Shown one piece after another: positions 1,414 through 51,069 of a DNA stretch of 64,000 nucleotides. The notes under the pieces were generated by a model. It was given only the letters and a program-made list of their open reading frames with translations. It had not been told where the DNA came from and made no database searches. The first letter of the stretch is position 1. Each line of letters opens with the position of its first letter. Source of the stretch: Streptomyces albofaciens JCM 4342 (GTDB taxonomy: Bacteria > Actinomycetota > Actinomycetes > Streptomycetales > Streptomycetaceae); NCBI RefSeq assembly GCF_008634025.1, contig NZ_PDCM01000001.1, forward strand, positions 924,501 to 988,500, written 5' to 3'. A program made the translations under genes and the position numbers.

Positions 1414-1575
1414 TCAGGAAATACATCCCGTCTTGGGCGCGGCCGTGGTCGCGCTGATGCAGCCGGACTTCGTGGCGCTGATGCAGCCGTCCTTCCCGGC
1501 TCCGCGCGGCGAGTTCAGGGCGACCCACTCACGCCAGACGCCGTCCTGGGCCATCTTCTTGATCAGCTGTTCCAT
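1414..1575 (-). CDS. Small Cys-repeat peptide, candidate RiPP precursor
   Basis: This is a 53-residue peptide starting at ATG 1575, ten bases after a GGAGG Shine-Dalgarno sequence, which strongly supports this start over a longer frame. The first half (MEQLIKKMAQDGVWREWVAL) looks like an amphipathic leader. The second half repeats a Gly-Cys-Ile-Ser unit three times (GCISATK, GCISATT and C-terminal GCIS), and is rich in Ser and Thr. That layout is what one expects of a precursor whose Cys/Ser/Thr are modified. I do not recognise the family. The next gene on this strand encodes an adenylate-forming enzyme. No cyclodehydratase, lanthionine synthetase, radical SAM enzyme or protease gene is visible, but the locus continues beyond the left edge. 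The Cys units could also be products of local DNA tandem duplication. Confidence 0.55.
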   Translation of the reverse strand: MEQLIKKMAQDGVWREWVALNSPRGAGKDGCISATKSGCISATTAAPKTGCIS

Positions 1576-2551: not shown

Positions 2552-3718
2552 CTACGAATCCCTGCCCGTCACGCTCTCCAGCGGCCTCGCCGTGACCCTC
2601 GCGGTGAACAGCTCGTGCCCGTTCTGAAGTGCGGTGACGCGGGTGTGGATGAGGCCGTCGTCGTCGGTCTGCGGCGTATCCCCCGCCGTGTCCTCGATCG
2701 GCACTTCGACCGGAACTCGGGACGGAACTCGGGCCGGAACTTCGGCTTGCGAATCCGCGGCGCCCGTGGCTGCCCGTGCCCCCGTCTCCGGTCCCGTCCC
2801 CGCTTCCGTCTCCGATCCCGACTTCGTCATCTTTCCCGCCCCCGCTTCCGGGCGGCCGAGTACCGTCGCCTCTATCCAGCACGGTGCGTCCAATTCCGCG
2901 TACCGTGTGAAGACGGTGCTCAGGCCGACGGGTATGACCTCCATCGGGTGGAGCGCCGCGTGGACCGCCTGGTGGGCGGCCTCCAGCAGCAACATGCCGG
3001 GGGCGTGGTCGACGGGGTGGTCGAAGATGACCGGGTGGGTGGTGTCCGTGCGGAGCTGCCAGCGGTTGCGGGTGTCCGTGGGCGAGAGCATGACGCTCTC
3101 GAACTGCTCGCGGGCCACCCTGTGCGGCGCCACCGGCGGCGGCAGCGGAACAGCGCGGGCCATCGCTTCCCGGGCATCGCTGTATTCACCGCGCAGCCGG
3201 CGGTAGATGGCCGGTGCGTGGCTGGTGAAACGTGCGACCGCGGTGCCGAGGTGAACACCGTTCCGGGTGGCCTCGACATCCATGGTCAATGCACTCAGTG
3301 TGTCCTTACGGCGTTTGATGTCGGAGCAGGCGATGCGTAGTTCGATCTCGGTGGGGGCAGTCTCGGTACGCAGTGCTTCAGGGACCAGCGAATAAGTGAA
3401 GTGGTCCCAGATGAGTTGGTGTCCGAACGGCACGTTGTAAGCGAGATGTGAGAGCAGCGGAATGGTCTGCCGGATCGTCTCGATGAGCAGAAGCGGGTCG
3501 TGCAGCCGATTTCTTGAGGAGTAGAACGTATGGGCCCGCGGCCATTCCGCGGTCACGGTGTGGACATCCGGGGCCGTCTCCTGCCAACTGGTGAGCAGAA
3601 CTTCGGACAACGCCGTCTTGTGCACATACTCCTTGGGCACGGTGGTCGTCAGCGTGCGCGGGGAAGGTCCGGCGGCAGCAGGTGCGGGAAACTTCGGAAG
3701 CTGGCCGGTGGTGCTCAT
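2552..3718 (-). CDS. afsA: Gamma-butyrolactone biosynthesis protein, AfsA/ScbA family
   Basis: AfsA-family enzymes condense a beta-ketoacyl-ACP with dihydroxyacetone phosphate, the first committed step to the A-factor type hormones of Streptomyces. The protein has two hot-dog-like halves. The first carries VHKTALSEVLLTSW (residues 32-45) and HTFYSSRNRLHDPLLL (63-78). The second carries IFDHPVDHAPGMLLLEAAHQ (231-250). Residues about 290-350 form an unusual Gly/Thr/Ala/Pro-rich insertion of repetitive character (ARVPSRVPVEVP) before the last beta strand (HTRVTALQNGHELFTARV), making the protein longer than usual (388 against roughly 300-320). It is divergent from the receptor gene, with an AT-rich operator-like site between them, as in scbA/scbR loci. 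Confidence 0.93.
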   Translation of the reverse strand: MSTTGQLPKFPAPAAAGPSPRTLTTTVPKEYVHKTALSEVLLTSWQETAPDVHTVTAEWPRAHTFYSSRNRLHDPLLLIETIRQTIPLLSHLAYNVPFGHQLIWDHFTYSLVPEALRTETAPTEIELRIACSDIKRRKDTLSALTMDVEATRNGVHLGTAVARFTSHAPAIYRRLRGEYSDAREAMARAVPLPPPVAPHRVAREQFESVMLSPTDTRNRWQLRTDTTHPVIFDHPVDHAPGMLLLEAAHQAVHAALHPMEVIPVGLSTVFTRYAELDAPCWIEATVLGRPEAGAGKMTKSGSETEAGTGPETGARAATGAADSQAEVPARVPSRVPVEVPIEDTAGDTPQTDDDGLIHTRVTALQNGHELFTARVTARPLESVTGRDS

Positions 3719-3884: not shown

Positions 3885-3913
3885 CATAAAATAAATAGTA
3901 TTCGTTTTGTTTG
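3885..3913. promoter_or_regulatory. Candidate butyrolactone-receptor operator (site A)
   Basis: This AT-rich stretch lies in the divergent afsA/receptor region, ending about 20 bases before the receptor start. Read toward afsA it contains AAAACGA followed by TTTATTTTAT. The same arrangement (AAAACGA, then TTTATTCT) occurs at 7661-7689, and a close variant at 11671-11697, each just upstream of an IS701-like gene. ScbR-type receptors bind such AREs in this position. Binding here is inferred. Confidence 0.6.
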
Positions 3914-3934
3914 TCGAGGGAGCTGGTGCTGTCC

Positions 3935-4549
3935 ATGCAGGAGCGTGCGGTCAGGACACGTGAGGTCATCCTCCGGGCGGCCGCCGAAGTGTTCGACGAG
4001 TTCGGGTTCAGCGGCGCCAGTATCAGCAAGATCATGAAGCGGGCCGGAGTGACGCAGGGTGGGATGTACTTCCACTTTCCGTCAAAAGAGGCACTGGCCC
4101 AGGCCGTGATGGTCGAGCAGGGCGGCGGCCTGGACCTGCCGCCCGGAGAGGACGGCCTCCAGCGCCTGATCGACATCACCCTGTATCTGGCCGAGGAATT
4201 GCAGACAAATCCCAAACTGCGGGCGGGCGTCCGACTTGCGGTGGAACAAGGGGAGTTCGGGGTACAGGACGATTCCGCGTACCGCGCCTGGGCCGAGGAG
4301 TTCGGCGGCCAGTTGCGCGCCGCCCGCGAGAAGGGCGAACTGCTCCCCGAAGTGAACGTGGACGAACTGGCCTGGGTTCTGGTCAGCGCCTACACGGGTA
4401 CGCAACTCTTCTCGCAAATCTCCTCCGGCCGCGCCGATCTGCACCAGCGCGTGGTCTCCCTCTGGCGCTATCTGCTGCCCGGCGTCGCCGTCCCGCCCCT
4501 CAGGCCGCTGCTGACCTTCGCGGCACGGCGGCGCCGGGTGGTGGCGTGA
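3935..4549 (+). CDS. Gamma-butyrolactone receptor, TetR family (ArpA/ScbR type)
   Basis: A 204-residue TetR-family repressor. The N-terminal helix-turn-helix spans AERAVRTREVILRAA-like residues to VTQGGMYFHFPSKEALA (about 42-58 from this start). The C-terminal ligand domain has the LVSAYTGTQLFSQIS pattern of butyrolactone receptors. The start ATG 3935 is chosen because family members begin with M-x-E-R-A-x-R-T-R. A TTG 24 bases upstream is open in frame, but it would start inside the operator-like site. It is divergent from afsA and followed after 47 bases by an epimerase-like gene, probably its operon partner. The expected role is to repress afsA and other targets until the hormone accumulates. 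Confidence 0.9.
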   Translation: MQERAVRTREVILRAAAEVFDEFGFSGASISKIMKRAGVTQGGMYFHFPSKEALAQAVMVEQGGGLDLPPGEDGLQRLIDITLYLAEELQTNPKLRAGVRLAVEQGEFGVQDDSAYRAWAEEFGGQLRAAREKGELLPEVNVDELAWVLVSAYTGTQLFSQISSGRADLHQRVVSLWRYLLPGVAVPPLRPLLTFAARRRRVVA

Positions 4550-4596
4550 GGGTGAGCCCGTGTGAGCGGGAGGGGCAGGGACCGCTGTAGGAGGCG

Positions 4597-5988
4597 GTGC
4601 GGGCCTTCACGGACGCGTACGAGACCATGGCACGTAGCGGTTCCAGCAGCACATCAGGAAGCGAGTGCACGAGCGTGACGGCGAACGCGGTGAACACGGG
4701 GAACACGGAGGACGAGGCGCGGGCGGAGGCCGGTAGCGGGCAGACGGCCCGCCCGTGGCGTGTGGTCGTCACCGGAGCGACCGGCTTCATCGGGTCCGCG
4801 GTGCTGCGAGAGCTCCTGCGTACGCAACCGGGCTCTTCCCCGAGCCCCCGCCCGCATACCGAACCCACCCCCTCCCTTACGGAACCCGCCCTTACGGGAC
4901 CCGCCCTTACGGAACCGGCCCTTACGGGACCCGTCTCCTCCCTTACGGACCCCACCCCCTCCCCGCGCCCCCTCCAGATCTGCGCCACGTCCCGCAAGCC
5001 CCCCGCCGACTCCGGCATCGACAGCCCCGACTCGGGCCCCGACTCGGGAGCCAACTCCGGCTCCGGCTCCGACCCCCGCATCGACTGGGCCCGAGCCGAC
5101 CTGGCCGACGCCGCCTCCCTCCGCGGCCTGTGCGAGGGCGCCGATGTGCTGCTCCACCTGGCTTCCGACATCGGCCGGGACGAGGAGCACTGCGAGCTGG
5201 TGAACGTGCGCGGCACCGCCGCCCTGGTCGACGAGGCCGTACGCGCCGGTGTCGGCCGTATCGTCCACCTCTCCACCGCCGCCGTGTACGGGGCGGGGCC
5301 GCACTCCGGCCTGGATGTGGACGAGATCCCGCCCGCCCCGGTCTCCGCCGCCAGCCGTACCCGGCTCGCAGCCGAGCAGCCGGTGCTGGCGGCGGGCGGT
5401 ACGGTGCTGCGCCCGGGGCTGGTGCTGGGCGCCGGTGACCGGTGGGTGGTGCCCGCGCTGGCCGAGCTGCTGGGCCGGGTGCCGGCGCGCTGGGACGGGG
5501 GCCGCGGACTGCTCTCGGTCGTGGCGGTCGAGGACCTGGCCCGCCTGTTCGTACGGCTGGCCCTCGCCCCGTACGACACCCCCGGCACTCCTGGCGCCTC
5601 CATCACCTCGACCACGCCCAACACGTCCACCACCACCGGCATCCCTGGCACCCCCGGCATTCCCAGCGGCGTGTACCACGCCAGCCACCCCACCCCCGTG
5701 AGCAACGGCGACCTCATGGACACCCTCCTCGCCCATGACGTCTTCCCCGACGCTCCGGCCGCCCTCCCCGATCTCTCCTGGTCCGACTGCCTCCAGCGCC
5801 TCGAAGCCGTCCCCGGCCGGGTGAGCGAGCGGCAGTTCGCCCTTCTCGCCCGCGACCACTGGTACCGCAGCGACGAGGTGTGGACGGCGGCGGCCTGCGA
5901 CCCGGGCCCCGGCCCGCTCGCGCGCCTCGCGGACTCGGCGGACTGGTACCGGACCCACCTCCGCGCCCGCTTGCAGACGCGTGCCTAG
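4597..5988 (+). CDS. NAD(P)-dependent epimerase/dehydratase-like protein
   Basis: Extended short-chain dehydrogenase fold with a clear Rossmann motif VVVTGATGFIGSAV (about residues 56-69), a DLAD and LLHLASD strand, and STAAVYGAG. The catalytic Tyr-x-x-x-Lys expected before LAAEQ is replaced by ASRTR, so the canonical active site is missing. Two low-complexity insertions lengthen the protein to 463 residues: a 15-bp DNA repeat giving LTEPALTGPALTEPALTG (DNA about 4873-4933), and a PGTPG/TST-rich loop around 330-350. It follows the receptor gene in the same direction. Genes of this class sit beside afsA in several butyrolactone loci and may reduce or trim the hormone precursor. The start is uncertain: GTG 4597 has AGGAGG only two bases away, and ATG 4627 or GTG 4675 are alternatives. 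Confidence 0.75.
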   Translation: MRAFTDAYETMARSGSSSTSGSECTSVTANAVNTGNTEDEARAEAGSGQTARPWRVVVTGATGFIGSAVLRELLRTQPGSSPSPRPHTEPTPSLTEPALTGPALTEPALTGPVSSLTDPTPSPRPLQICATSRKPPADSGIDSPDSGPDSGANSGSGSDPRIDWARADLADAASLRGLCEGADVLLHLASDIGRDEEHCELVNVRGTAALVDEAVRAGVGRIVHLSTAAVYGAGPHSGLDVDEIPPAPVSAASRTRLAAEQPVLAAGGTVLRPGLVLGAGDRWVVPALAELLGRVPARWDGGRGLLSVVAVEDLARLFVRLALAPYDTPGTPGASITSTTPNTSTTTGIPGTPGIPSGVYHASHPTPVSNGDLMDTLLAHDVFPDAPAALPDLSWSDCLQRLEAVPGRVSERQFALLARDHWYRSDEVWTAAACDPGPGPLARLADSADWYRTHLRARLQTRA

Positions 5989-6087
5989 ACCCGCCCGCGC
6001 CGGAGCTCGCGCCGGTGGACGTACCGGTGCGCACGCCGGTGTGAGCGTCGGTGTGAGAGCTGGTGAACGCGCCGGGCGAACACGCCA

Positions 6088-6119
6088 ACGCGCCGGGCCA
6101 TCTCGAAGACCCGGCGCGT
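6088..6119. terminator. Hairpin terminator between convergent genes
   Basis: Perfect 10-bp stem ACGCGCCGGG / CCCGGCGCGT with a 12-base loop, midway between the stops of the epimerase-like gene and the first IS701-like gene. It can serve both strands. There is no T-run. Confidence 0.75.
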
Positions 6120-6154
6120 CGGCCTGCCTGCTTTCTCCCTGCCCCCTGCCAGGG

Positions 6155-7612
6155 TCAGGACACGAACCGCACCCGAGTAAGGGTCTGTTCGTCCTGCACC
6201 GCCGTCAGGGCACGATAGGCATGCGCGGCGGACGACAGCGTCATGTGGTGGTGCCACCCCGGAAACGAGCGGCCCTCGAAGTCGTGCAGTCCGAAGTCCG
6301 TCTCCAGGGCGCGCAGGGTGGCCGCGGGCAGCTGGTGCAGCCGGGCCAGGCCGACGAGCTGGCCCATGCGGCGGTGCGCCATGTTGGTGAGCCAGACCCG
6401 GTTCGGCCGGGCGGAGGTCTGCCCCGGCTCCGCGAAGGCGCGGTAGGTGTGGGGGGAGCCCGGGACCCGTACGGGCGTGGGCGCGGTCTGGAGGAGGCGC
6501 GGGCGGGCGCCCGGGTCGCCGGGCATACCGGGCGTGGCCGGGGTGGCCAGCGCGGTGGCGGACGGCACGGCGATGACGAAGTCGCGCCCCTGGCGGGCCA
6601 GCGCCTCGATGAGCCGTACGGAGTCGGAGTACTCGCTCAGGTCGGCGACGACGGGCGCCGGCGCGGAGCACGTACGGGCGGCCTGCGCCTCCACCAGGTC
6701 GAGGGCGTGCACCCACATCGGGCGCGGGTTGTTCGCCTCCGAGGCGGGGATGCGGTTGCGGCGCAGCAGCTCCTCGTCACCGGCCCACTGGGGCGGCAGG
6801 AACAGCCGCCAGTCGACGGATACGGCCGAGCTGTCACCGCACTCGGCGGCCGAGGTGACGCTCGCCGTCGAGGCGGCGGGGGACGCGGCCGCGTCGCCCA
6901 CCGGCAGGAACATGCCCATCGCGAGCTGGCAGCTGACGGTGCGCCCGGCGCGGGAGCAGAAGCGACGGTGCACGCCGACGGAGTGGCCGCCCCGCTTGGG
7001 CAGCACCGCCGGGGCCAGGATCCACGCCCGGGCCGGGCCGGACGCCTCGGCCCGGCGCGCGATCTCGCGCCGTACGGGGTTCCAGTCCCAGGGGCTGGCG
7101 TTGAGGAACTGGTGCAGCGACTGCGAGGCGGTCGGCGAGTCGGACACCGCGGCGGCCAGTCGGCGTACGGACTTCTTGCCCTCGGTGGTCAGCAGCGCCA
7201 GCAGGTATGCGTGCGCCCAGCGGCGCTGGTCGGTGCGTGGCAGATGGCCGAAAAGGTCGTCCGCGAAGGCGTCGAACGAGCCCGACGCGTCGGCGGCGGC
7301 GCGACCGGAACCGGTGGTGGCGGCCGGGGCCGCGGCGGTGGTGCCGGTCCTGCCGCTCCGGCGGGCGCTTCCGGTTCGGCCGGTGGCGGTGGTCCGGCCG
7401 GTGGTCCCGGTCGCGGCGGACCGAGTGGCCCGGACCGGTCGTGCGGCGCGGCCGGTGCCGCCGGGGAAGGCGTCGGCCGGGACGCCGGAACGATCACGGG
7501 CGCCGGACTTGTCGGTCGCGCCGACGGCTGCGAGAGGGTGGCCGGAAGGGAGGGTGGCGGACAGGGATCGTGCGGGTGTGCGGGTGGTCGGCTGCGCAGT
7601 TTCTGTCGTCAT
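6155..7612 (-). CDS. IS701-family transposase-like protein 1, first catalytic Asp absent
   Basis: 485 residues from ATG 7612, which has GGGAGGG nine bases upstream; an in-frame ATG 24 bases earlier lacks this. Residues 1-115 are Thr/Ala/Arg-rich low complexity. The rest matches IS701-type DDE transposases: FADDLFGHLPRTDQRRWAHAY (116-136), LPKRGGHSVGVHRRF (204-218), VVADLSEYSDSVRLIEAL (321-338) and HDFEGRSFPGWHHHMTL (443-459). Active members have an Asp-Asp pair just before the PKKG-like motif. Here the residues are ILAPAVLPKRG, so the first catalytic Asp is gone while Asp324 and Glu446 remain. No terminal inverted repeats or target duplications flank the gene, and site B lies about 50 bases upstream. 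It is most likely a domesticated protein under hormone control. Its function is unknown. Confidence 0.8.
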   Translation of the reverse strand: MTTETAQPTTRTPARSLSATLPSGHPLAAVGATDKSGARDRSGVPADAFPGGTGRAARPVRATRSAATGTTGRTTATGRTGSARRSGRTGTTAAAPAATTGSGRAAADASGSFDAFADDLFGHLPRTDQRRWAHAYLLALLTTEGKKSVRRLAAAVSDSPTASQSLHQFLNASPWDWNPVRREIARRAEASGPARAWILAPAVLPKRGGHSVGVHRRFCSRAGRTVSCQLAMGMFLPVGDAAASPAASTASVTSAAECGDSSAVSVDWRLFLPPQWAGDEELLRRNRIPASEANNPRPMWVHALDLVEAQAARTCSAPAPVVADLSEYSDSVRLIEALARQGRDFVIAVPSATALATPATPGMPGDPGARPRLLQTAPTPVRVPGSPHTYRAFAEPGQTSARPNRVWLTNMAHRRMGQLVGLARLHQLPAATLRALETDFGLHDFEGRSFPGWHHHMTLSSAAHAYRALTAVQDEQTLTRVRFVS

Positions 7613-8109
7613 GTGTTCGTTCCCTCCCGTGGTCATCCCGTGGATCGGGCGCCGACCAGCAAAGAATAAAGAACGATCGTTTTTTTTGCGAGCCCGCGAG
7701 GTCCGGGGCTGTTTCCGTCATACCCGGAACCGGGTCGGGCGGCTGTTGAGCGACGCTCGGGCGACTGTGGAGACCGGGGTGCGCGGGCGCCCGGACAGGG
7801 GGCGCGCCGGCGATACGGCAGCGGCGCCCGGCCGGTCCGTACGCGCCCCCGCCGACCGGCAGGCGATCCGCCCCGAGGCTGCCCCGGCGTCGCGCCCCGG
7901 ATTCCGCTTCGCCCTCTGCGCCGACCCGGCCCCGACCGGCCTCGCGATCGTTGCAAGAGCCCCCTTGAGGGCCCCCGGTTCCCATACTGATCAAGTCTCC
8001 GCCAACTGCCCCCGTCGCCGTGCGGGCCGCCGAACCCCGGCCCTAGCATGGGCGGTTGGGTGTCACCGGTACGGCGCTGGCAACCGAGGGCGATCACCGA
8101 GGCGGGACA
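7613..8109. other. Divergent intergenic region
   Basis: The 497-base gap between IS701-like gene 1 and the second receptor-like TetR gene. Apart from site B near the left end I see no gene, clear hairpin or further copy of the motif. The remainder is GC-rich. Confidence 0.5.
7661..7689. promoter_or_regulatory. Candidate butyrolactone-receptor operator/promoter (site B)
   Basis: Read toward the IS701-like gene 1, this AT-rich block contains the palindrome AACGATCGTT followed by CTTTATTCT, which could be a -10 region. Over 25 bases it matches site C at 22 positions, and it shares AAAACGA and TTTATT with site A near afsA. Confidence 0.6.
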
Positions 8110-8871
8110 ATGGCGCGACAGGACCGAGCTGAGCGGACGCGCCGGGCCCTGCTGCGGGCGGCTGCCGACGAGGTCGCCGAGAAGGGGTACGCGGGCGCCT
8201 CGCTGGCCCGCATCAGCACCGCTGCCGAGGTGACGATCGGCGCCCTGACCTTCCACTTCGCCTCGAAGGCCGCGCTCGCGGAGGCGGTCCGGGATTCCGG
8301 GTGCGCCCTGACGCGCAGCGCGCTGGCGTCCCTCATGAGGCCGGGCGCGCGCCCGAACCCCGGTGCGCACGGCGAGCTGCGACGGGTCGTCACCTTCACG
8401 CGCACGCTTGCACGCCTCCTCGAAGAGGAGCCGACCGTACGGGCCGCCGCCCGACTCGCCTGGGACTTTCCCGGCGACGGCAACACCTGGTACGCGATGT
8501 GGCTGCCGTGGCTCGGCGACCTCGTCGACCGGGCGCGCGCGGACATCGCCGGCTGGACCACCCCGGAAGCGGTCACCGCCACCGCGCTGTCCGTGGTGAC
8601 CGGCGCGGAATTCGCGGCCCGTATCGGCGTACCGCGCGGCGCCACGGCCGGGCTGTCGCCGTGGGAGCACGTGGACCGGGTCTGGGGGCTGCTGTTGGGG
8701 GCCCGCACGCCGCTGGTGGTGGGCGGCGAAGAGAATCCGCTCGGCGGTGGCGGGAGCCCGCTGGGCAGCGGAAGCTCGCTGGGCGGCGGAAGTCCAGTGG
8801 GCGGCGGGAGCCCGCTGGGCGACGAGGACCCCGTAAACGACGAGAACCCGGTGGGAGCCGCTACGCGGTGA
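8110..8871 (+). CDS. TetR-family butyrolactone-receptor-like regulator 2
   Basis: 253 residues from ATG 8110 with GAGGCGGG just upstream. The N-terminus (ARQDRAERTRRALLRAAADE, then TIGALTFHFASKAALAEAV) is the helix-turn-helix of the ArpA/ScbR group. Its FHFASKAALA wording is characteristic of receptors and pseudo-receptors. The ligand domain continues to about residue 210 (WEHVDRVWGLLLGA). The last 45 residues are a repetitive tail of PLGGG/SPLGSG/SPVGGG units encoded by a DNA tandem repeat, unlike any receptor I know. It is divergent from IS701-like gene 1, whose operator-like site lies between them. It may be the pseudo-receptor counterpart of the 3935 gene, as in ScbR/ScbR2 pairs. Confidence 0.85.
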   Translation: MARQDRAERTRRALLRAAADEVAEKGYAGASLARISTAAEVTIGALTFHFASKAALAEAVRDSGCALTRSALASLMRPGARPNPGAHGELRRVVTFTRTLARLLEEEPTVRAAARLAWDFPGDGNTWYAMWLPWLGDLVDRARADIAGWTTPEAVTATALSVVTGAEFAARIGVPRGATAGLSPWEHVDRVWGLLLGARTPLVVGGEENPLGGGGSPLGSGSSLGGGSPVGGGSPLGDEDPVNDENPVGAATR

Positions 8872-8889
8872 CGGCTTCGCCGTCGGATG

Positions 8890-9120
8890 AGGGCTGTAGC
8901 GATCGGTTGTGGCGACCGGTTGCGACGACCGGTTGCAGCGACCGAGTGCCGCCACCGATCACCACGACCGCGTGCCCCCACCCGCTCCCGCAACCACATG
9001 CCCCGCCGATCGCCGCAACCCGACGCCCCGCCGATCGCCACGACGCACCCCCCGCCGACCGCCGCAACCAGACGCCCCCGCCGATCGCCACAACCACATG
9101 CCCCCGATCGCCGCAGCCGT
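8890..9120. repeat. Intergenic degenerate tandem repeat
   Basis: Two successive blocks: GCGACCGGTTGC-type units (8896-8945), then about seven copies of a unit CCGCCGATCGCCACAACC with variable 6-10 base fillers (about 8990-9115). They fill the 303-base gap between the TetR gene and the kinase-like gene. I see no gene here. Confidence 0.7.
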
Positions 9121-9174
9121 CCCCAGCGCAAAAATCCATCGCAGCCGCACGGCCGGCATGGCACCATCACCGGC

Positions 9175-10134
9175 ATGCCAGGTTTGCCAGCGATCATGAC
9201 GCCTGACCAGCTCGCCGCCCGTACGTCACGCGCGTTGGACGCCGCCGTCGGCGCAGGCCGCGACCTGGGGCTCACGGTCACCGATCCTCAGGTCCTCCAC
9301 GACGTGTTCTCCGTCGTCGTCCACCTCGCCCCCTCGCCCGTGGTGGTGCGGGTCCCGACCGTCCTGCCGTCGTACGCCACCCCCGACAGCCAGGCGGCGC
9401 GTCAGCGGGTGGAGCTGGATGTCGTGGCCTGGCTCGCGGAACAGGGGGTTCCGGTGGTGCCGCCGAGCCCGCTCGTGCCCCGGGAGCCCGTGCAGCGGGA
9501 CGGTTTCGCCATGACCTTCTGGCAGTTCGTCGAGCAGGACGCGAACGGCGAACCTGATTACGTGCGCAACTCCGGCCTGGTCGCCGACCTGCACGCCGCG
9601 CTGCGCGCGTACCCGGGTGAGCTGCCGTTCCTGGCGGCCGCCGAACCTCGGTTCGTCACCGAAGGGCTCGCCGGTCTCGAAGGGCGCACCGACCTCATCG
9701 AGCCGTCCGACCTCGACCGCGCGCGGCGCGAATGGGCCGTCCTGGAGCCGCTCGTCAGCTCGCGCGCCGCGTTCGAGGCGGCGTTCCCCGGCGTCGGCTT
9801 CCAGCCGGTCCACGGGGACGCGCCCGCCGTCAACATCGTCACCACGACGAGCGGCGCGCTGTACTCCGACTTCGAGCTGGCCACACTCGGGCCGGTCGAG
9901 TGGGACATGGCGGCCCTCGGCCCCGAGTGCGAGGCGGCGTACAACGGCGCCGCGCGCCGCCTGGGCCTCCGGGAGCTGGACGAGCGCGCCATGCGCGCCA
10001 TCAACGCCGTGGGGATGCTGCGGGCGGTGGCGTGCTTCGCGTTCGTACCGCGACTGCCCATGCTGGCGGACGCCCTGAAGCCGGCCGTCGAGCAGTGGCG
10101 GGGGACGCCGTTCGCCGGGGGCCTGGAGGACTGA
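9175..10134 (+). CDS. Aminoglycoside-phosphotransferase-fold (APH) protein
   Basis: A 319-residue protein of the APH/choline-kinase superfamily, which phosphorylates small molecules with ATP. The catalytic Brenner motif is seen as VHGDAPAVNIV (about residue 217) and the metal-binding aspartate in YSDFELATLGPVEWDMA (about 233). The N-lobe has VVVRVP, with an Arg-containing strand rather than a clear Lys. The substrate cannot be predicted; such genes in Streptomyces may inactivate antibiotics or act on metabolites. The start is chosen at ATG 9175; ATG 9196 is also possible, and neither has a strong ribosome site. The gene is convergent with the monooxygenase gene, with 50 bases between stops. 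Confidence 0.8.
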   Translation: MPGLPAIMTPDQLAARTSRALDAAVGAGRDLGLTVTDPQVLHDVFSVVVHLAPSPVVVRVPTVLPSYATPDSQAARQRVELDVVAWLAEQGVPVVPPSPLVPREPVQRDGFAMTFWQFVEQDANGEPDYVRNSGLVADLHAALRAYPGELPFLAAAEPRFVTEGLAGLEGRTDLIEPSDLDRARREWAVLEPLVSSRAAFEAAFPGVGFQPVHGDAPAVNIVTTTSGALYSDFELATLGPVEWDMAALGPECEAAYNGAARRLGLRELDERAMRAINAVGMLRAVACFAFVPRLPMLADALKPAVEQWRGTPFAGGLED

Positions 10135-10144
10135 GCCCCTACCA

Positions 10145-10240
10145 ACCCTGGACCTGGACCTGGACCTGGACCTGGACCTGACTCTAACCCTGGCCCTGGT
10201 TCTGACCCTGGCCTCGGTTCTGGCCCGGGTCCTGGCCTTG
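10145..10240. repeat. Hexanucleotide repeat between convergent genes
   Basis: CCTGGA units run five to six times from about 10147 to 10180, then decay into CCTGG(C/T)-CTGGTTCTGACC units that encode the Gln/Gly-rich tail of the monooxygenase (EQGQDPGQNRGQGQNQGQG). The repeat therefore crosses a stop codon. Confidence 0.75.
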
Positions 10241-11368
10241 CTCCTGCTCGTCTTCGGCGAACGCGGCGATCAGGCTGTGGGGCGCGTCGTCGCCGAACAT
10301 GAACTCATAGAGTCCGGAGCCCTCGGTGGCGACCTCGGCGCTGCGCGGGAACATGGCCTGCTCGTACGCGGTGAGCGCGGCCTCGATGTCATCGGGGTGC
10401 GCGGCGAGGGCCTGGCCGAGTTCCGCGCCGTCGAGCATGGCCAGGTTGGCGCCTTCGCCGTTCGGGGGCGCGAGGTGGGCGGCGTCGCCGATCAGGGTCA
10501 CCCCCGGTGCCCGGCCCCACCGGTGCTCGACCGGCAGTGTGTTCATGGTGCGCAGGACGGGCGTGGTGTCAGCTTCGGTGATCAGCGCGGTCAGTTCGGG
10601 TGCCCACCCGTCGAATTCCCGCGCGATCCGCGTGGTGGCCGCGGCCGCATCGGTGAAGTCGATGGCGGCGAACCACTCCTGGGGCCTGGCCAGCATCACG
10701 TACGCGTGCAGGGTGTCGCCCCTTTCCCGGTGGGCCTGGATGCCCTTGCCCGGCGCGGGCGTGAGCAGCATGCCGCCGCCGACCGCTTTCGCGGTGGCCG
10801 GATACCGGGTGTCGGCGTCGAACAGATAGGTCTCGACGCACGACATGCCGGTGTACGTTGGGGTGGCGGTGGAGAGCAGCGGTCGGACCCGTGACCAGGC
10901 GCCGTCCGCGCCCACCAGCAGGGTGGTTTCGACGGAGCTGCCGTCGGCGAACGTCACCTCGTGGCGGCCCTCGCCGAGGGTGCGGGTACGGCTGACCTTG
11001 TGCCCCCACCGGACGGTGCCCGCCGGGAGCGAATCGAGCAGGACCTGCCGCAACTCGCCGCGCTGCACCTCGGGGCGTCCGCCCGTACCGTCGTCCGCCT
11101 TGTCGAGCAGGACGGTCCCGTCCCGGTCGAGGACGCGCAGCGCCTGACGGCCCTCCAGGATCAGGCCCTGGAACTCGTCCATCAGGTCGGCTGCCTTGAG
11201 GGCGAGCTGCCCGTTGTAGTCGTGGATGTCGAGCAGCCCGCCCTGGTGGCGGGCAGTGGGGGAGGACTCCGCCTCGTAGACGGTGGCCGGTATGCCGTTG
11301 ACGTGCAGGACACGGGCGAGTGTGAGGCCGCCGAGACCGGCGCCGATGATGGTTACGTGAGTGGTCAT
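10184..11368 (-). CDS. FAD-dependent monooxygenase, TetX/PHBH-like
   Basis: A 394-residue group A flavoprotein monooxygenase. It has the GxGxxG FAD motif (IIGAGLGGLTLARVL, 8-22), the DG motif LLVGADGAWSRVRPLL (about 152-167), and the second FAD motif LIGDAAHLAPPNGEGANLAM (about 296-315). The order and spacing match TetX-like tetracycline/aromatic hydroxylases that use NADPH and oxygen. The residues after about 370 are a repetitive Gln/Gly/Asp tail. A 28-base stretch coding for RWGHKVSRTR (about residue 120) is perfectly repeated in inverted orientation upstream of the gene. It could be a tailoring or resistance enzyme. Confidence 0.88.
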   Translation of the reverse strand: MTTHVTIIGAGLGGLTLARVLHVNGIPATVYEAESSPTARHQGGLLDIHDYNGQLALKAADLMDEFQGLILEGRQALRVLDRDGTVLLDKADDGTGGRPEVQRGELRQVLLDSLPAGTVRWGHKVSRTRTLGEGRHEVTFADGSSVETTLLVGADGAWSRVRPLLSTATPTYTGMSCVETYLFDADTRYPATAKAVGGGMLLTPAPGKGIQAHRERGDTLHAYVMLARPQEWFAAIDFTDAAAATTRIAREFDGWAPELTALITEADTTPVLRTMNTLPVEHRWGRAPGVTLIGDAAHLAPPNGEGANLAMLDGAELGQALAAHPDDIEAALTAYEQAMFPRSAEVATEGSGLYEFMFGDDAPHSLIAAFAEDEQEQGQDPGQNRGQGQNQGQG

Positions 11369-11547
11369 GGTGGCTCCTTCGCCGTCGTACGCCTGCCGGG
11401 CGGGCGCTTGGCAGGGTCACCGGAAAGGTGCCAGGCCTCGCTGACGGACCGCCGACAACGGGCCGACAGGTGGCCGAGATCCGGTAGGTGGCTGTGGCCG
11501 GGTAGGTGGCCGAGAGCCGGGTGGGGGCACAAGGTCAGCCGTACCCG
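10983..11547. repeat. 28-bp perfect inverted repeat (10983-11010 and 11520-11547)
   Basis: GGTGGGGGCACAAGGTCAGC plus CGTACCCG reads on the minus strand inside the monooxygenase gene and on the plus strand upstream of it. The 509 bases between hold the first 119 codons and the promoter. No transposase or recombinase gene is adjacent to the repeats. Confidence 0.85.
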
Positions 11548-11740
11548 TACGTCCGGCGTGGTCCGCCCCGGGGCGGGCGGCTTCCGACGCCATGGCCGGG
11601 CTCCCGCGACCCCGGCTTCGTGCCGCTCCGGAACTTTGTGAAGTAGTCCGTGATCCGCTCACCGGCTCCAGAAAAATAGCGAACGTTCTTTATTCTCAGG
11701 CTGTCGCCCGCCTGCCAACCTCTCCCCGGGGGCCAGTCCC
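11369..11740. other. Divergent intergenic region with small repeats
   Basis: This gap separates the monooxygenase and IS701-like gene 2. It holds a short tandem repeat of CCGGGTAGGTGGCCGAGA type (about 11455-11520), the upstream arm of the 28-bp inverted repeat, and operator-like site C. There is no gene. Confidence 0.5.
11671..11697. promoter_or_regulatory. Candidate butyrolactone-receptor operator/promoter (site C)
   Basis: Read toward IS701-like gene 2: GAAAAATAGC then GAACGTTCTTTATTCT, containing the palindrome GAACGTTC. It is 22/25 identical to site B in the same orientation and at a similar distance from the start codon (about 45 bases). This suggests common regulation of the two paralogues. 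Confidence 0.6.
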
Positions 11741-13015
11741 TTGTCCGTGCCCGCAGCCCGCACCGCCGTTCCGCCGCCTCTCCCCGGGCGGCCGGCCAGC
11801 ACCCAGGACGCGTGGATCGAGGACCTGTGCAGACACCTTTTCGTGTCCTTCACCAGGGCGGACCACCACCTCAAGGGTGAACAGTACGTACGCGGACTGC
11901 TCACCGCCCCCGGCCGCAAGTCCATCCGCAACATCGCCCGCACCCTGGAGGACACCGGCGCGGCCCAGCGCCTGCACCACTTCATCTGCAACGCCCCGTG
12001 GAACTGGCGCGCCGTCCGCGAAGCCCTGTCGGAGTACCTGGTGCGGCGTGCCCGGCCGCGCTCCTGGGTGGTCCGCCCGATGCTCATCCCCAAGTCCGGT
12101 ACGAACTCGGTCGGCGTCCACCGCCGCTTCGTCCCCGCCACCGGGCAGCTGGTCAACGGGCAACTGGCGTACGGCCTCTGGTACGCGAACCAGTCCCTCG
12201 TCGCCCCGGTCGACTGGCGCCTGCATCTGCCGGCACCGGACTCCGGGCCGTTCGCCCTGAGTGACGAGGGTGTTGCGCGGGTCCTCTCCTTGGCGCGCCG
12301 GTCCGCCTGCCCGGAGACCGCGGAGCTTCCCCCGATGGTCTGGGACAGCCAGATGCACCACGCCGCCGACGTGCTGGGCGCGTTGACGCCGCTCGGACTG
12401 CCCGTCATGGCTCGTACGCCCGGATCGCTGCCGCTCCTGCTGGTGGACCGTTACGGCCGCCCGTCCCGCCGCGGCGCCCTCCCCGCGCAGCGCATCCTCG
12501 CCGCCCCGGAACGTTTCAGCCTGCCGGTGCACAACGTCGCCCCTGGTGTGCGGGCGATTCTGGCCCGCGTCGCCCCCGCGCGGACCGGCGAGAGCGGAGG
12601 CGCGGGTGAGCTGCTGCTCTACGCCCAGCGGTACGAGGACGCCGAGGCGTACGACGGGCACGGCACGGGTGCCCGCGCGGACTTCTGGCTGACCACGTCC
12701 GCCGTGGCCGGGAAGGTCCCGGCCGAACTGCACCTGCTCACCCGGACCGCCGCGCGCGTGGCCCGCGACAGCGTCCGCACCGGCGGCCGTACCGGCCTGC
12801 GCGACTTCGAGGGCCGGTCGTACGACGGCTGGCACCGCCACATGACGCTGGCCTCGGCCGCGTACCTGGTCCAGACGCTCACCGCGCTCGATGCCGTACG
12901 GTCGGCCCGCGAAGCGCAGCGGCCCTGCGCGCCCGAATACGCGTACCCGAGCACGGGCGCGCCGCGCGGGCCCGGCCGGCGCGTATGCGAGCAGCCCCTC
13001 ACCCTGGTGGGGTGA
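11741..13015 (+). CDS. IS701-family transposase-like protein 2, first catalytic Asp absent
   Basis: 424 residues, a divergent paralogue of the protein encoded at 6155-7612. Shared blocks are APGRKSIRNIARTLED (56-71), HHFICNAPWNWRAVREALSE (79-98), LIPKSGTNSVGVHRRF (115-130), VWDSQMHHAADVLGAL (200-215) and LRDFEGRSYDGWHRHMTL (353-370). The position of the first catalytic Asp reads VVRPMLIPKSG, again without Asp. Asp202 and Glu357 are kept. It lacks the long disordered N-terminus of the paralogue. There are no terminal repeats. TTG 11741 is used; GTG 11747 is an alternative. Conservation of the fold with loss of the same catalytic residue in both copies argues for a retained non-transposition function. 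Confidence 0.8.
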   Translation: MSVPAARTAVPPPLPGRPASTQDAWIEDLCRHLFVSFTRADHHLKGEQYVRGLLTAPGRKSIRNIARTLEDTGAAQRLHHFICNAPWNWRAVREALSEYLVRRARPRSWVVRPMLIPKSGTNSVGVHRRFVPATGQLVNGQLAYGLWYANQSLVAPVDWRLHLPAPDSGPFALSDEGVARVLSLARRSACPETAELPPMVWDSQMHHAADVLGALTPLGLPVMARTPGSLPLLLVDRYGRPSRRGALPAQRILAAPERFSLPVHNVAPGVRAILARVAPARTGESGGAGELLLYAQRYEDAEAYDGHGTGARADFWLTTSAVAGKVPAELHLLTRTAARVARDSVRTGGRTGLRDFEGRSYDGWHRHMTLASAAYLVQTLTALDAVRSAREAQRPCAPEYAYPSTGAPRGPGRRVCEQPLTLVG

Positions 13016-50841: not shown

Positions 50842-51069
50842 GGCCGAGCCTTTCTGCCGCCTGGTAGCGCGCTGCCGCGAGATTGTCACGGGGTGCGCGC
50901 CGAGAGCTGTCCTCTCGCGCTGGACCGAGTGATACCGCGTGGTCCGCACCTGGAAGAGGTGGCTGCGTGTGGCAGGGGACCGCGGCCGCCGAGCGGTCGC
51001 GCCAGCTCTGCGTCAGGCAGAGTTGGTTCCTTTGATTGCCATGACATAGTACAGGCCGGTACGCGGAAA

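Follow-up and report, generated by a model that had tools for sequence, protein, structure and literature searches.

It is an open question by what route a butyrolactone receptor relays its signal when its targets are few and local. Control of afsA, of the receptor gene and of local output genes by an ScbR-type receptor is a known scheme, and the locus considered here, from Streptomyces albofaciens JCM 4342, asks whether two transposase-like genes can be such outputs. The window (the whole stretch analysed, 64 kb, C1:924501–988500, in a genome of 9,252,595 bases on 2 contigs) contains an afsA-type gene, a receptor gene, a second receptor-like gene (tetR2) and two genes for IS701-type proteins, dI and dII, with related sites, A, B and C, at three promoters. 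Our reading, to which we give a probability of about 0.75 from the sequence, is that A, B and C are the operator of the receptor, that the receptor would repress afsA and its own gene, dI and dII until hormone is present, and that dI and dII are most likely regulators. The features concerned are listed below by window position, with bit scores for the sites from a held-out matrix described later.

2552–3718, minus strand: afsA-type butyrolactone synthase gene (PF03756; NCBIfam ScbA/BarX, 345 bits, cut-off 200)
3885–3913, no strand assigned: predicted operator A, between afsA and the receptor gene (42.7 bits at 3887–3912)
3935–4549, plus strand: ScbR-family receptor gene (NF041196, 212 bits, cut-off 150)
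6155–7612, minus strand: dI, IS701-type protein (PF13546; likely start 7612, with a ribosome-binding-like GGAGGG)
7661–7689, minus strand: predicted operator B, before dI (35.0 bits at 7662–7687)
8110–8871, plus strand: tetR2, a diverged ScbR-like protein, divergent from dI (NF041196, 116 bits, below the cut-off of 150)
11671–11697, plus strand: predicted operator C, before dII (29.9 bits at 11672–11697)
11741–13015, plus strand: dII, second IS701-type protein, TTG start (PF13546)

The three sites are likely to represent one operator, predicted as an AT-rich near-palindrome of about 20–26 bp; at each promoter it probably overlaps the −10 region. The original prediction had described the likeness of B and C, their common orientation and their short distance to the start codons, and each of these holds. 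B (7663–7687, minus strand) and C (11672–11696, plus strand) are identical at 22 of 25 bases (88%), closer to each other than either is to A; they form an inverted pair on the plus strand and are oriented alike relative to their own genes; and they end 48 bp before the likely dI start and 43 bp before the TTG of dII, respectively. Site A, read on the minus strand, contains the AAAACGA followed by TTTATT that had been pointed out. Allowing up to three mismatches, the 17-bp core AACGANCGTTCTTTATT matches four times in the window, where 100 shuffles predict 0.03; B and C account for two matches each, the near-palindrome being matched on both strands.

A 26-bp matrix was trained on the upstream regions of receptor genes at 14 other Streptomyces loci, with dI promoters excluded and the window, S. 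rimosus and S. monomycini held out; it was applied to the window and to promoters, and whole genomes were scanned by mismatch pattern. A, B and C are the three top places in the window, and the next separate place, at 51013, scores 10.7 bits. Promoters of dI genes score above the best control in 20 of 22 loci, a set that includes close relatives such as L168 and L170; the controls were 105 promoters of catalytically dead IS701-type genes away from afsA (best 4.7 bits, median −9.9 bits). An operator shared by the receptor/afsA promoter and by target promoters is what marks genes as members of a butyrolactone receptor regulon, and such sharing is what we find.

The whole-genome scan that the original prediction had proposed as a check turned out in its favour: a pattern made from B and C (up to three mismatches) matches B and C alone in 9.25 Mb, and a wider-family consensus at the same tolerance matches only A, B and C in the genome, with no match for the control. 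A looser pattern was run on 18 genomes chosen for carrying the dI locus, where it found 45 distinct sites, 35 of them at the dI locus; the backwards control gave 2. Genome G056 carries two afsA/receptor/tetR2/dI loci with both sites in each. One further site lies about 30 kb from the dI locus, before an afsA gene (G082), and a weak one about 17 kb away (G161), at the start of an open reading frame (ORF; L255:2677–3864, minus strand) that has no Pfam match and that we take to resemble StrR/ParB-type regulators. The remaining 8 of the 45 lie elsewhere in the genomes, each with three mismatches; in G019 one of these stands immediately before another afsA match.

Comparison with related species, also suggested beforehand, gave the expected result, the site recurring at the same genes within conserved footprints. 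Against S. monomycini, B is identical at 29 of 29 positions (74% outside the site), C at 89% (67% outside) and A at 90% (79% outside). If B and C were alike only because a promoter was duplicated along with its IS701-like gene, any resemblance to A would be incidental and no receptor would act there. The closer match between B and C and the homology of dI and dII, which are 31% identical, speak for this account; we nevertheless consider it improbable, because B and C are recovered by a matrix whose training set held receptor promoters only, the operator also precedes dI in loci without dII (for example L166, L168 and L173), and conservation of the sites exceeds that of their flanks. A shared ancestral promoter of B and C, which the original prediction had offered as its alternative, is compatible with a regulon: because dI- and dII-type genes of Streptomyces sp. 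MMG1533 (L050) stand in tandem behind a single visible site, C could have arisen by copying when the pair was split. The held-out matrix, the near-exclusive occurrence, the recurrence in other species and the conserved footprints uphold the assignment of the A, B and C promoters to one butyrolactone-type regulon.

What the operator would control was at first called IS701-like, a label that is correct as to family, as the family model confirms, and misleading in that the catalytic signature is missing from both proteins. At the columns D1, D2, R, E and K, dI has A, D, H, A and E, and dII has R, D, A, A and G, so that neither carries the DDE and R/K residues of an active IS701 transposase; PF13546 and NF033540 are above their cut-offs, as in IS701 family transposases, and the overall fold is of the Tn5 type. 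Judged by these residues, the proteins seem unable to cut DNA, and they look domesticated rather than mobile. Ratios of non-synonymous to synonymous substitution (dN/dS) of 0.31–0.39 for dI and 0.34–0.36 for dII indicate purifying selection. Terminal repeats had been named in advance as evidence that would overturn the prediction; a search for inverted 11-mers shared between the upstream 300 bp and the downstream 400 bp found none for either gene, and no second copy has the same promoter site, unlike IS701 elements. The genome's intact IS701 has repeats of about 150 bp. It is very improbable that dI and dII are insertion sequences in decay which happened to land behind promoters under receptor control: family models still call them IS701 transposases, but their frames are open and under selection, terminal repeats are missing, and the same locus and operator occur in many species. 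The same genome also has a second dead IS701-type pair on contig C2, one of each kind and about 16 kb apart (L003:1426–2628 and L005:901–2022); the stretches fetched contain neither an afsA nor a receptor homologue, and no operator is visible by eye.

A genome scan for dII relatives, of which the best 80 of at least 512 loci were kept, gave an afsA homologue in 9 of these 80 and a receptor homologue alone in 3 more. From two Streptomyces genome searches (matches in 100 of 150 and in 131 of 199), 60 regions were picked and fetched, a choice that favours relatives of the A3 alignment, itself built from such loci. In a tree of 134 relatives, the dI of the window falls in a clade of 20 members (support 0.995), 17 of which have afsA or the receptor within 10 kb. 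L178, which lies on a contig of 4 kb, and L185, which is close to the end of its contig, have tetR2 only, and L164 has none of afsA, receptor and tetR2 within 10 kb. In a later batch, L223 and L224 hold afsA, receptor, tetR2 and dI together, in L215 the three signalling genes and a dII-type gene are 5–9 kb apart, and signalling genes are missing from 17 regions. Across 45 genomes (79 afsA genes and 44 copied positions of dead IS701-type genes), 14 pairs of the two kinds lie within 15 kb, against 0.37 expected under uniform placement, an expectation that clustering of either kind would raise; 11 of the 79 afsA genes have such a neighbour.

In a second group, L051 and its relatives by leaf order, afsA or the receptor adjoins 10 of 11 members. 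A different palindrome, visible by eye (approximately GTATAAAGAAACAGGACnnnnnGTCCTTTTTC), stands before the dI-like gene beside afsA or the receptor in L051, L054, L059, L061, L065 and L073, and a conserved ACTACCGTCCGGTAACTTGACACTCTC-like stretch precedes the following dII-type gene of this lineage. A matrix from eight receptor promoters of the L051 lineage does not separate its dI/dII promoters (at most 13.2 bits) from 90 controls (best 20.4). Lone dead IS701-type genes lie close to the end of another gene in L020, L021, L023, L026, L031, L036 and L046, a neighbour that, from its C-terminal sequence, presumably resembles a PucR-type regulator. On a linear plasmid of Streptomyces globisporus, an annotated transposase that is a distant IS701 relative (L204:8010–9197) has a type I polyketide synthase gene about 7 kb away.

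The protein most likely to bind the operator is the receptor. NF041196 and NF041195 are both above their curated cut-offs, identifying an ScbR-type receptor and an AfsA-type synthase, and the nearest solved structures of the receptor are those of its homologues AvaR1, a butyrolactone receptor, and CprB. The operator could instead belong to tetR2, a possible pseudo-receptor, or to another TetR-type protein, in which case the genes would answer another ligand. This we think rather unlikely, though less so than a duplicated promoter. In the window tetR2 and dI are divergently oriented, many loci have tetR2 beside dI, and published pseudo-receptors have sites in common with receptors (PMC7480387); against this, all 17 dI-clade loci scored for it have the operator at the promoter of the receptor gene itself, 14 of these loci being the training set, and among the locus proteins compared the receptor is the best conserved.

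Three further features lie near these genes. A gene of the NAD-dependent epimerase/dehydratase type has homologues at the S. rimosus and S. monomycini loci (tblastn). The 3′ end of tetR2 (8746–8835) contains an 18-bp tandem repeat encoding a Gly/Ser-rich tail. A 53-residue ORF at 1414–1575 (minus strand) ends in three GCIS repeats (DGCISATKSGCISATTAAPKTGCIS) and looks, we assume, like the precursor of a small modified peptide.

4654–5988, plus strand: NAD-dependent epimerase/dehydratase-type gene (PF01370)

Returning to the receptor as the likely regulator, we infer its binding, the repression and release of the promoters, and the action of dI and dII. The ScbR-type receptor, perhaps together with the pseudo-receptor tetR2, would bind the operator and, at low cell density, repress afsA and its own gene, dI and dII; a butyrolactone-type signal made by the AfsA protein would then release all these promoters together. 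Beyond the signalling genes, the outputs would be two domesticated IS701-type proteins with a transposase fold that includes the N-terminal helical part and has lost the catalytic signature. These would most likely relay the signal as DNA-binding regulators, a position occupied in other butyrolactone clusters by genes for StrR-type regulators or Streptomyces antibiotic regulatory proteins (SARPs); this is the simplest reading and the most likely one.

Much of this arrangement matches ScbR/ArpA-type regulons with autoregulatory elements (AREs), such as those of S. filipinensis SfbR/SfbR2 (PMC7480387) and S. avermitilis AvaR1 (PMC5744401), which likewise comprise an afsA-type synthase, an ScbR-type receptor and a second, diverged receptor, with sites before the signalling genes and local output genes. 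According to PMC7480387, four of five AREs in S. filipinensis overlap −10 boxes, a StrR-type and a SARP-type gene are among the outputs, and control of the filipin genes is indirect. In contrast, the site here departs from the 18-nt ARE consensus and the outputs are IS701-type proteins. The SARP domain BTAD has 16 matches in the genome, none in the window, the nearest on the contig being about 70 kb from A, and Pfam scans of ORFs near the left window edge and left of the window named no biosynthetic cluster. Among the open-access matches listed, some of whose texts contain 'transposase', no title or abstract opening describes IS701-like genes in a butyrolactone regulon; the term has no match in the accessible text of PMC5744401, PMC7480387 and PMC7554373, nor, as a whole word, in that of PMC13307308.

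dI and dII might be regulon members without being regulators, acting against insertion sequences as the Tn5 inhibitor does or in some other structural or enzymatic role. We regard this as possible, and as the strongest of the competing accounts. However, the intact IS701 transposase of the genome shares only 22% identity with dII, and through the operator the genes are linked to hormone signalling. dI differs from the Tn5 inhibitor protein (1b7e) in keeping its N-terminal part, in having lost the catalytic residues and in not being encoded by an active element. This account and the one that assigns the operator to a pseudo-receptor partly overlap with a role of dI and dII as DNA-binding regulators.

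Several observations weigh against control of regulatory dI and dII genes by the receptor. NF033540, the NCBI IS701 model, scores the two proteins at 252 and 214 bits (cut-off 150), which places them in the transposase family by descent. By matrix score the operator is absent before dI in L164 and L184 (2 of the 22 loci), and in G075 the sites at the dI locus exceed the mismatch limit of the looser pattern, so that none passed. The sites match published 18-nt ARE consensuses with three to five mismatches, the usual range of random window pieces; the operator is ARE-like by position and company, not by sequence. The operators of the receptor (A) and dI do not covary significantly within loci (p = 0.13 over 14 loci), and operator–receptor co-evolution was accordingly dropped. 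Finally, the looser pattern finds one further site with three mismatches in the genome, C2:4409336, about 110 bp upstream of the following gene, a possible weak extra target:

L258:3474–4370 (own genome, C2): ORF for a helix-turn-helix regulator (HTH_31 with an MmyB-like ligand-binding domain)

Because this fourth site is weaker, exclusiveness can be claimed for strong sites only. On that basis, strong operators would occur here only at the afsA/receptor promoter and before the two dead-transposase genes, and across Streptomyces a catalytically dead IS701-type clade would have been recruited as a dedicated butyrolactone output, a new class of signal-dependent DNA-binding regulators replacing SARP or StrR proteins. 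We see the arguments for and against this broader proposal as evenly balanced. The locus suggests that the hormone signal has gained disarmed transposases as outputs; if they are the main non-autoregulatory targets of the receptor, they are the first place to seek the missing link. If this is true, genes annotated 'IS701 family transposase', which cluster analyses easily pass over, turn into candidate regulators of silent antibiotic clusters.
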